A stretch of 64,000 nucleotides of DNA. Origin: Halogeometricum pallidum JCM 14848. Lineage in GTDB: Archaea > Halobacteriota > Halobacteria > Halobacteriales > Haloferacaceae. The position numbers and the translations under genes were made by a program. The notes below the pieces were generated by a model. The model was not told the origin of the DNA. It saw only the letters and a program-made list of their open reading frames with translations, and ran no database searches. Numbering within the stretch: the stretch's first letter is position 1; each line of letters starts with the position of its first letter. The stretch spans positions 62,001 to 126,000 of the forward strand of contig NZ_AOIV01000008.1 of assembly GCF_000337095.1 (NCBI RefSeq), given 5' to 3'. Of this stretch, positions 21,734 to 25,228 are shown piece by piece.

Positions 21734-22696
21734 ATGAGACAGTGGCTTCGTCGACAGTTCAACGGCGCCTACGAGCGGACGCTCCGCCGTGAACTCGGAA
21801 ACGGACCCGCGCACGTCGCCATCATCCAGGACGGCAACCGCCGGTACGCCCGGAGTCACGGCGACGACGAACCGGAGGGACACCGAGAGGGCGCGAAGAC
21901 GACCGAACGCGTCCTCGATTGGTGCGACGAAGCCGGCGTCGAGGAACTGACGCTGTACACCTTCTCGACGGAGAACTTCGACCGCCCCGCCGACGAACTC
22001 GAACCGCTGTTCGACCTCATCGAGTCGAAACTGTACGAGTTCGCCGACGCCGAACGCGTCCACGACTCCGAGGTCCGCATCTGCGCCATCGGCCAGACGG
22101 ACCGCCTCCCGGACCGCCTCCGCGAGGCCATCGACTACGCCGAGGGGGAGACGGGCGACTACGACGGCTTCCGTCTCAACATCGCCCTCGCCTACGGCGG
22201 CCGGGCCGAACTGCTCGCCGCCGCCCGCGACGTGGCCCGCGACGTGGAGGCGGGAGAGCTCTCGGCGTCGGACGTCTCTCTCGACGCCGTCGACGAGCGA
22301 CTCTGTCGCCGCCCCGCCCGCGACGTCGACCTCATCATCCGGACGGGCGGCGACGAACGGACGTCGAACTTCCTGCCGTGGCACGCCAACGGCAACGAGG
22401 CGGCCGTCTACTTCTGTGCGCCCTACTGGCCGGAGTTCTCGAAGGTTGATTTCCTCCGCGGCCTCCGGACGTACGAGTCCCGCGAGAAGTCCTGGCAGCG
22501 CACCCGCACCGAACGGGCCGTCGCGCTCGTCCGGTCGGCGGCCGAGACGGAGTTGGCCGAGGCCAAGACCGTCGCCGGCCGCCTGCGCGAGCAACTCCCC
22601 TCTGCCGGAGCCGAGGAGGTCGTCGCCGAGTTGGAGCGACAGGGCGACGGGAGCGACGTGGAACGCAAGACCGAGACGGTTGAGTTCGCGGACTGA
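21734..22696 (+). CDS. uppS: Undecaprenyl diphosphate synthase-type cis-prenyltransferase
   Basis: A 320-residue enzyme that extends an allylic diphosphate with cis isoprene units, giving the lipid carrier for surface glycans and N-glycosylation. The catalytic block IIQDGNRRYARSHG has the conserved Asp33; TLYTFSTENF and IIRTGGDERTSNFLPW are the substrate and diphosphate-binding motifs. A helical C-terminal extension of about 60 residues is longer than in bacterial enzymes. A degenerate paralogue lies at 23148-23756 on the opposite strand. Confidence 0.93.
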   Translation: MRQWLRRQFNGAYERTLRRELGNGPAHVAIIQDGNRRYARSHGDDEPEGHREGAKTTERVLDWCDEAGVEELTLYTFSTENFDRPADELEPLFDLIESKLYEFADAERVHDSEVRICAIGQTDRLPDRLREAIDYAEGETGDYDGFRLNIALAYGGRAELLAAARDVARDVEAGELSASDVSLDAVDERLCRRPARDVDLIIRTGGDERTSNFLPWHANGNEAAVYFCAPYWPEFSKVDFLRGLRTYESREKSWQRTRTERAVALVRSAAETELAEAKTVAGRLREQLPSAGAEEVVAELERQGDGSDVERKTETVEFAD

Positions 22697-22783
22697 CCGC
22701 GTCGTCGCACCGAAGCACGCGTCGCCTCGGAGCGTCCGCCCATCAGACGATACAAACGGCTGGGCGCACTACGCGAGGTACCG

Positions 22784-23014
22784 ATGAAACCACGTTCCGG
22801 AGCGTTCGCAGCGGGTATCGTCTTCGTCTTCGCCGTCGCCGTCGTAGACGCGGGCGTTCTCGCGACTCTCGCTCCCCCGACCGCCGCTCAGACGGCTCTC
22901 GGAGTGCTCGACCGACTGACGGAGTTCGTTCGGGGTCTCGACCAGTTCCTCGAAGCCGTCCTCGACCTCGTGCGGACCTTCAGCAGTCTGTTCGGCGGTG
23001 AGGGCGGAGACTGA
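22784..23014 (+). CDS. Small single-helix membrane or secreted protein
   Basis: A 76-residue frame with a hydrophobic N-terminal segment at residues 8-32 (AAGIVFVFAVAVVDAGVL) and an amphipathic helical rest (LDRLTEFVRGLDQFLEAVLDL) ending in a Gly-rich tail. Codon third positions are GC-rich like neighbouring genes, and it starts about 40 bases after a GATACAAAC promoter-like element. No family recognised. It lies between the two cis-prenyltransferase genes. Confidence 0.6.
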   Translation: MKPRSGAFAAGIVFVFAVAVVDAGVLATLAPPTAAQTALGVLDRLTEFVRGLDQFLEAVLDLVRTFSSLFGGEGGD

Positions 23015-23147
23015 CCTCCCGGCTCCGCTCGCAACGGCGTTCGGACGCTTCCTCCGTCGGCGCCCGAACCGCCGTCGGAACACTCCGACGAGATTCGGCC
23101 TACCGGCCACATTTCCGTCGCTCACTTCGTTCGCGACGGCGTTCGGC

Positions 23148-23756
23148 CTATCGACCGAACCGCCGCTGCCGGTTCTGGTAGTCGAGCACGGCCCGCAGGT
23201 AGTCCCGTTTCCGGAAGTCCCGCCAGTTCACGTCCGTGAAGTACAGTTCCGAGTAGACCGACTGCCAGATCATGAAATCCGAGAGGCGTTCGGCGCCCGT
23301 CTTGATGAGCAGGTCGGGTTCGTCGGGGAAGACGAGTCGCTCCTCGACGTGGTCGGCGCCGATGTCGTCCGGCGAGATATCGCCGGCCTCCACGTCCTCC
23401 GCGATGTCGCGCACCGCGTCGGCGAACTCCCGTTTGCCGCCGAGGCCGATGCTCACCTGCACGGGTTCGTCGGCGCGTTCCCGGTCGCCGGGGCCGCGGA
23501 CGGCGATGGGGCGGGGGGATTCGACGTCGCGGAGTTCGCGTTCGAGGGTCTCGACGACGGCCTCGTCGAGGACGCTCACCGAGATGGTGACGCGTTCGGC
23601 GCCGAACTCGAACGCCCATTCGAGAAATCGCGACAGGGTCTCGTAGGCCCCCTGTTCGAGTAGGTCGCGTTCGGTGATGACGACGGCGACGTGCGACGGG
23701 GGGTCGGCGTCGTGCCGCCGGAGTCGGAAGGCGAGGTAACCGTCGTACAGTCCCAC
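23148..23756 (-). CDS. Cis-prenyltransferase paralogue lacking the catalytic DGN motif
   Basis: A 202-residue member of the UppS fold. The C-terminal half is well conserved (LLIKTGAERLSDFMIW, YSELYFTDVNW, RDYLRAVLDYQNRQ) and ends RRFGR, an R-x-G terminal motif. The N-terminal catalytic block is gone: where DGNRR should lie the sequence reads HVAVVITERDLLEQGAYE. This pattern resembles the non-catalytic partner of heteromeric cis-prenyltransferases (NgBR/Nus1 type). A catalytic UppS is the near neighbour, so a two-subunit enzyme is plausible but is inference. Confidence 0.88.
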   Translation of the reverse strand: MGLYDGYLAFRLRRHDADPPSHVAVVITERDLLEQGAYETLSRFLEWAFEFGAERVTISVSVLDEAVVETLERELRDVESPRPIAVRGPGDRERADEPVQVSIGLGGKREFADAVRDIAEDVEAGDISPDDIGADHVEERLVFPDEPDLLIKTGAERLSDFMIWQSVYSELYFTDVNWRDFRKRDYLRAVLDYQNRQRRFGR

Positions 23757-23899
23757 GGTAACCGATGCGTCCCCCCGTCGCTAAACCCCACCGATTCCGG
23801 CGCTCCGCCTCGGAGCGCGACCGACCCGCCCTCGCGCGCCCTCGGGGCCGCATGGGCCATGTCGGGAGGGTTAAGTGCGCGTCGGAGATACCCGACTGT

Positions 23900-25228
23900 G
23901 TGCAATCGACGCTCCGGCGGGCGGGCGGCTTTGCCGCTGTGGGGACGCTAGCGCTCGCCGCACCGGTGCTGAAGGCGGCGGCGTTCGCCCCGTTCGCGGC
24001 CGTCGCCCTCCTCGCGGCCTTCGTCGTGGACGACGGCCCCTTATTCGAGGTGTTCGCTCGCCCGGGCGACCACCAGGACGGCCGCCTCAACGGTCTCGCG
24101 GGGTTCGCGCTCGCCGCCGCCGGTCTCGCAATTCTCGTCGCGGCGATGGAGATGCCCGTCGCACTGTTCGTCGCCACCGTGTTGGTCATCTCCTACGGCA
24201 ATCTCGGCAAGCAGGCCGTCGCTGCCGTCTCCGACGACCCCTTCCTCGGCACCTCGGGGTTCGTCGTCGGGGGGTTCCTCGGCGGTTTCTTCGGACAGAT
24301 CGGTGCCCGCCTCATCGAAGAGACCGCCGTCCCGGTCGCCTCGCTGTGGCCGTCGCTTCCGCTGTTCGTTTTCCTCGCCTCGTCGGCGGCGGTCGTCGCC
24401 GCGCTCTTCCGCGAGATGCTGTTCGAACGCGACGACCCGCTGGTGATGCTGTCGACGGGACTCCTGCTGTGGCTGTTCGGCGCGCTCGCGGGACCGGTCG
24501 GCGCCGTCGAAATCGTCGGTGCGCTCGCTCTCACGGTCGCGCTCGGATACATCTCCTACGCGCTCGAAGCAGCCTCCGTCGCCGGGATGCTCTCCGGTGT
24601 CCTGTTCAGCCTGCTCGTTATCGTCTTCGGCGGCTTCGGCTGGTTCGCTGTCCTGATGGCGTTCTTCGCCATCGGCGCGTTATCGACGAAGTTCCGGTAC
24701 GACGAGAAGCGCAACCGCGGCGTCGCGGAGGACAACGACGGCGCCCGCGGCACCGGTAACGTCCTCGGCAACGCCGCCGTCGCCCTCGTCGCCGTCGTCG
24801 GGTTCGCCGCCAGCACGCGGATACCGGTCGACGGGACGCTCTTTCAGTACGCATTCGCGGGGTCGATGGCCGCCGCCCTGAGTGACACGCTCTCCTCGGA
24901 GGTCGGCGGCCTCTACGACAACACCCGACTCATCACGACGTTCGAACGGGTCGACCCCGGCACCGACGGCGGCGTGACGTGGCAGGGGGAACTGTCGGGC
25001 CTCGTCGGCGCGGCCATCGTCGCCGTCGTCGCCATGCTCCTCCTCTCGGCCGTCACGACGCCCGTCGGCGGCGCCGTCGTCCTCCTCGGCGGACTCGCGG
25101 GGATGACCGTCGACAGCGTTCTCGGCGCCACCGTCGAGGGGGCGCGGGTCGGCAACGAGGCGGTCAACTTCACGGCGACGCTCGTCGGCGCCGTCGTCAG
25201 CACGGGCGTCGCCTTCCTCGTCCTCTGA
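23900..25228 (+). CDS. DUF92 integral membrane protein
   Basis: A 442-residue polytopic protein with roughly ten or more hydrophobic segments. The C-terminal half carries DUF92/TIGR00297 signatures: MAAALSDTLSSEVGGLY with the conserved Asp-Thr and Ser-Glu, GGVTWQGELSGLVGA and GGLAGMTVDSVLGAT. Plant relatives act in phytyl phosphate recycling; the archaeal role is unknown but a polyprenol phosphate substrate would suit the neighbouring cis-prenyltransferases. I chose GTG at 23900, about 28 bases after a TTAAG promoter element, suggesting a leaderless message. Confidence 0.88.
   Translation: MQSTLRRAGGFAAVGTLALAAPVLKAAAFAPFAAVALLAAFVVDDGPLFEVFARPGDHQDGRLNGLAGFALAAAGLAILVAAMEMPVALFVATVLVISYGNLGKQAVAAVSDDPFLGTSGFVVGGFLGGFFGQIGARLIEETAVPVASLWPSLPLFVFLASSAAVVAALFREMLFERDDPLVMLSTGLLLWLFGALAGPVGAVEIVGALALTVALGYISYALEAASVAGMLSGVLFSLLVIVFGGFGWFAVLMAFFAIGALSTKFRYDEKRNRGVAEDNDGARGTGNVLGNAAVALVAVVGFAASTRIPVDGTLFQYAFAGSMAAALSDTLSSEVGGLYDNTRLITTFERVDPGTDGGVTWQGELSGLVGAAIVAVVAMLLLSAVTTPVGGAVVLLGGLAGMTVDSVLGATVEGARVGNEAVNFTATLVGAVVSTGVAFLVL

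Follow-up and report, generated by a model that had tools for sequence, protein, structure and literature searches.

We analyzed a 64,000-nucleotide stretch of the Halogeometricum pallidum JCM 14848 genome (contig NZ_AOIV01000008.1, positions 62,001 to 126,000; hereafter, the window), which contains two convergent genes of the cis-prenyltransferase family separated by 451 bp. The first gene (21734-22696, + strand) encodes a protein of 320 aa, hereafter C, that matched PF01255 (1-217, 1.2e-65) and TIGR00055 (7e-67). Direct reading of the sequence placed the DGNRR block with the catalytic Asp33 at 21830-21844 (+) in the context AIIQ-D33-GNRR, where D33, G34, N35, R36, and R37 are the A3 invariants. 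With a full domain, the Asp in DGNxR, and the FPP-site residues S71, N74, and R77, C is the predicted catalytic subunit. The predicted model of C (pLDDT 86) matched the folds of DHDDS and UppS.

C has no C-terminal RxG of its own, as would be found in an enzyme of the homodimer type. In place of this tail, it carries a C-terminal extension (22499-22693, +). The domain passes via ...YESREKSWQRTR... into this helical extension, and its continuation ...RGLRTYESREKSWQRTR... leads to a tail with helices predicted at residues 237-272, 274-285, and 290-305. The C-family profile aligned human DHDDS through residue 294 and E. coli UppS only through residue 243. The extension was aligned with DHDDS only by the full profile; as a search query on its own, it returned no significant relatives. 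Past the last conserved helix motif, the C tails of 141 measured proteins (L063-L091, L098-L111, and others) fell into two main classes, with at most 25 residues in 51, many of them from methanogens, and at least 45 residues in 81, from haloarchaea and others. Many methanogen C proteins are without the long extension and have only the RxG motif missing. The C protein of L069 bears RRFGG close to its C-terminal end.

The second gene (23148-23756, - strand) encodes a degenerate paralogue of 202 aa, hereafter P, which is a probable accessory subunit. Its match to PF01255 was confined to the C-terminal half (profile positions 117-219, 2.4e-26), and the alignment placed a degenerate remnant, ITERDLL (23658-23678, -), where the DGNRR block would lie. 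The C-terminal end reads QNRQRRFGR, with the RxG tail motif R199-F200-G201 encoded at 23154-23162 (-). The AlphaFold2 model of P (pLDDT 89) had the cis-prenyltransferase fold, and its last residues were of low confidence, as expected if the tail is ordered by a partner. P thus combines the same fold with the loss of the catalytic residues and an RxG end, as would a heteromer partner. About 20 residues precede the first core strand, including one short helix (3-14) with charged residues, and an N-terminal transmembrane domain such as that of NgBR/Nus1 was not found in P. The dN/dS values of this P against four relatives were 0.11-0.19, lower than those of C against three relatives (0.17-0.29). 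These results indicate that P is under purifying selection and is a working gene. In lineage f20 (L176 and L177), P has ~160-170 aa, with the N-terminal half mostly lost and the C-terminal half and RRFG tail kept. The P proteins of family f16 (L181-L186) have an Asp in LVLDETDLL at the catalytic-Asp column, without the subsequent G-N-R-R.

Divergent from P lies a gene for a DUF92 integral membrane protein (23765-25228, +; PF01940, 5e-55), whose real start is probably a GTG near 23900. The preliminary description of the window had named a UppS with Asp33 in DGNRR, a neighboring protein that had lost this block while keeping the C-terminal motifs and an R-x-G end, and DUF92 next door, and all three assignments were confirmed. 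A small ORF between C and P (22784-23014, +; 76 aa) has a hydrophobic N-terminus. Among the fetched loci nothing resembled it convincingly, most relatives have only a short gap at this place, and we do not count it as part of the system.

Reciprocal motifs in C and P

We next compared the active-site columns of 183 C proteins and 174 P proteins. DGN was found in none of the P proteins. An Asp occupied the D26 column in 20 of them, the N28 and R30 columns showed no conservation, and at least 170 have deletions at the N74 and R77 columns. At the column of E. coli R242, P proteins have Arg (172 of 174) or Lys (2 of 174), and the G244 column holds Gly in all 174. In C proteins, D26, N28, R30, S71, N74, and R77 were kept except in 2-4 gapped rows, the D, N, and R of the DGNRR block being present in 179-181 of the 183 and gapped in the remainder, and the R242 and G244 columns were not conserved. 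As judged from the aligned sequences, the split of motifs between C and P is reciprocal and nearly absolute. The motifs are complementary, in that each protein has what the other lacks, the predicted substrate site in C and the closing tail in P. The missing RxG in C, absent from the preliminary description, is the strongest argument for a heteromer.

Distribution of C and P

The source genome has only two PF01255 genes, one C and one P, and no gene of the MM_0014/MA1831 type. In the class Halobacteria, PF01255 was detected in 242 of 242 genomes, nearly always as exactly two genes. The P query matched all 242, and the matches listed (about 160) were near full-length with 66-100% identity. C and P occurred together throughout with the sole exception of genome G072, in which P was present and C was not found, possibly owing to an assembly gap. 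The phylum-wide sample had the family in 195 of 197 genomes, nearly always as two genes; for Halobacteriota other than haloarchaea, the count was 155 of 157, with a single C and a single P in almost all. Similarly, in a set of 67 genomes across families, almost all genomes with the family had a full-length copy (1 to ~216) and a second copy, the latter usually matched over its C-terminal half only. G365, like G072, had P, and C was not found in the genome. In G248 and G256 (family f18; ~91% complete genomes), no PF01255 gene was found, and DUF92 was present. The joint occurrence of C and P is far beyond chance. The degenerate clade therefore does occur with a catalytic partner, as the preliminary description had proposed to check, in all sampled haloarchaea except G072 and, with rare exceptions, across the phylum.

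We also surveyed 59 genomes of Thermoplasmatota. Exactly one PF01255 gene was present in 49, a second match in 7 (one a fragment), and none in 3. The copies that were fetched have DGNRR and a RRYGK/RRFGR-type end in the same chain.

Genomic association with DUF92

Among 62 genomes of the phylum, P and C were convergent neighbors in 24, representing 13 families, and P and DUF92 were divergent neighbors in 31, representing 11 families; no other close orientation of either pair was seen among the 62. In the contig scan of 80 named loci, which does not include M. mazei itself, C was convergent in 42 of the 63 loci with enough sequence, and DUF92 was divergent in 41 of 66, including Methanothrix, Methanoperedens, and Argoarchaeum. 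Family f15 has C at another place in the genome, yet P and DUF92 lie side by side in 9 of 9 cases. The P-DUF92 pairing also occurs with C elsewhere in the genome in families f15, f19, and f26. DUF92 is thus more than a chance neighbor of P. It was present in 119 of 119 Halobacteriota genomes, as a single copy in all except one, and in 51 of 59 Thermoplasmatota genomes. Being widespread in Thermoplasmatota as well, DUF92 is not tied specifically to the heteromer.

The pairing of DUF92 with P, even without a nearby C, suggests a role for DUF92 in polyprenyl phosphate metabolism. Plant VTE6 is presumably a DUF92 protein. VTE6 is a phytyl-phosphate kinase (PMC7580956), and archaea complete their dolichol phosphate by late steps that are not yet known (PMC5088576). 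We regard DUF92 only as a reasonable candidate for a late step of dolichol phosphate synthesis.

Phylogeny

A maximum-likelihood tree was calculated from 58 rows and 249 columns, with human DHDDS as the one eukaryotic sequence and NgBR left out. P formed one clade (100/99) and C another (97/92). Each clade spans families of the phylum, and both take in Methanosarcinaceae. Since both kinds of protein form a single clade that runs across the phylum, one duplication before Halobacteriota followed by complementary loss accounts for them. A single archaeal enzyme with both motifs would thereby have given rise to the two genes before the phylum diversified, and the ancestral state is likely the Thermoplasmatota-type single gene. 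Human DHDDS grouped with the single-gene Thermoplasmatota enzymes, outside C (97/78), which, in a tree with one eukaryotic sequence and without NgBR, suggests parallel origins for the heteromers of eukaryotes and archaea.

Comparison with known cis-prenyltransferases

M. mazei has three cis-prenyltransferases, MM_0014, MM_0618, and MM_1083, and the MM_0618/MM_1083 heteromer makes C45-50 products (Emi 2019, as cited in PMC8131916). This is the archaeal heteromeric form to which the preliminary description had alluded, and it comes from the same phylum as H. pallidum. A Methanosarcina-type genome (G351) also has three family genes. Two of them are a C and a P, and the third had 7VQ9 (2.5e-135) and MM_0014 (6.5e-132) as its two top PDB matches. 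Since the third gene is MM_0014-like, the C and P of G351 are by elimination the presumed counterparts of MM_0618/MM_1083 as that source reports them. By the same elimination, haloarchaeal C:P is very probably orthologous to MM_0618/MM_1083. The M. mazei-type genes are not adjacent (family f13), whereas the haloarchaeal pair is convergent and beside DUF92. MM_0014 and the MA1831 type (PDB 7CAQ) are, like C, archaeal cis-prenyltransferases without RxG, but they form a separate long branch and are homodimers ending in TLGG with short irregular products (PMC8131916). Bacterial UppS and the single-gene Thermoplasmatota enzyme share the fold, DGNxR as in C, and RxG as in P; unlike C and P, they have both motifs in one chain encoded by one gene.

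Human DHDDS/NgBR likewise pairs a catalytic subunit without RxG with a dead subunit ending in RxG, and DHDDS has a C-terminal helical extension similar to that of haloarchaeal C (PMC7573591). By contrast, the long N-terminal membrane region of NgBR is absent in P, which starts at about its domain, P retains much more UppS-like sequence than NgBR does, and DHDDS lies outside C in the tree. This kind of system is already known from eukaryotes and one methanogen. Our search for literature on haloarchaeal UppS1/UppS2 or a Haloferax cis-prenyltransferase found nothing relevant. Our analysis adds the reciprocal motif split, the near-universal distribution in the phylum, the single origin, a history that appears separate from that of the eukaryotic pair, and the link to DUF92.

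Proposed heteromeric enzyme

We consider it highly probable that C and P are the subunits of a single heteromeric cis-prenyltransferase supplying the polyprenyl diphosphate from which archaeal dolichol phosphate is formed, and that the C:P pair is obligate, with the tail of P completing the site of C. C would hold the whole substrate site, namely, Asp33, the FPP-phosphate residues, and the IPP-phosphate arginines, and would add IPP units in the Z configuration onto an E-prenyl diphosphate, of which FPP and GGPP are the probable candidates. With a C-terminus that leads into the extension and has no RxG, C would be unable to close its own site. P, with the same fold and a dead site, would pair with C via the usual dimer interface, and its R-F-G tail would cross to order the Mg/IPP site of C. 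The complementary motifs, the joint occurrence, the tree, the selection on P, and the folds are observations; from them we infer the physical complex, its stoichiometry, the completion of the site in trans, and the product of C:P. From this product, a polyprenyl diphosphate, haloarchaea would derive dolichol phosphate, the N-glycosylation carrier. Points that speak against the proposal are the methanogen C proteins without the long extension, the RRFGG of the L069 C protein, and the genomes in which C (G072 and G365) or both genes (G248 and G256) were not found. Haloarchaeal carriers are C55-60 dolichol phosphates.

In the human enzyme, the C-terminus of NgBR crosses the interface, and its tail residues contact phosphate and the FPP-binding residues of DHDDS; the helix-turn-helix of DHDDS is incompatible with a DHDDS homodimer that completes itself, and the heteromer is ~400 times more active (PMC7573591). 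Some activity is nevertheless seen with human DHDDS by itself, and C may likewise be active without P. Where the enzyme is a homodimer, Mg is coordinated via water by the Arg of RxG, and some structures show the acceptor phosphate bound by the Gly backbone (PMC8131916). This arrangement would also suit C and P.

Alternative explanations

C could work as a conventional homodimer, with P as a separate, no longer catalytic protein that serves, for example, in polyprenyl phosphate binding or the regulation of glycosylation. MM_0014 is an archaeal cis-prenyltransferase that functions as a homodimer without RxG (PMC8131916), and in several families the genes for P and C lie apart. However, RxG, which would have no evident use in a protein lacking a partner site, has its Arg in all but two of the P proteins, and it is also conserved in homodimer types (PMC8131916); a conserved alternative to the tail was never seen in C, and the proven M. 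mazei heteromer, as cited there, is the likely orthologue. We therefore regard an ordinary C homodimer as very unlikely. That P is a decaying, pseudogene-like paralogue without function would fit the loss of the whole catalytic N-terminal block and has almost no probability, as its dN/dS values are below those of C, it is present in every haloarchaeal genome sampled, and its single clade goes back as far as the phylum itself. Both selection and distribution refute this reading.

A further alternative, which concerns the history of C and P and not their function, is that archaeal C:P and eukaryotic DHDDS:NgBR are orthologs that go back to a common two-subunit ancestor. Both pairs show complementary loss with the same logic, the C profile aligned DHDDS with the extension included, and the P profile aligned NUS1 over the whole domain (5e-10). 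However, the P profile scored UppS (1e-32) and DHDDS (1e-21) far above NUS1, no NUS1 chain was among the best 50 fold matches of P, and the single eukaryotic sequence in the tree fell outside C. Common descent of the two pairs is thus unlikely. The heteromeric enzyme anticipated in the preliminary description is supported for haloarchaea by co-occurrence and the reciprocal split of motifs; its comparison with DHDDS/NgBR stands for the manner of working, and orthology is not supported, as DHDDS groups with single-gene archaeal enzymes. Beyond the C:P enzyme itself, we propose only tentatively that the heteromer is ancestral to Halobacteriota, arose in parallel to the eukaryotic one, and forms a module with DUF92, which would supply a missing late step of dolichol phosphate synthesis (e.g., as a polyprenyl/dolichyl phosphate kinase or by an exchange reaction).

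Implications

The haloarchaea, with the model Haloferax volcanii, are a main system for archaeal N-glycosylation, and their dolichol phosphate pathway is incompletely known (PMC5088576). Our analysis offers a testable two-gene enzyme where family models show two UppS-like genes and puts DUF92 forward as a candidate for an unassigned step. The C:P pair would be a second, apparently independent, case of a homodimeric enzyme split into an active and an inactive subunit. This split resembles the human enzyme for the dolichol lipid of protein glycosylation and may be useful when reading DHDDS/NUS1 disease variants.
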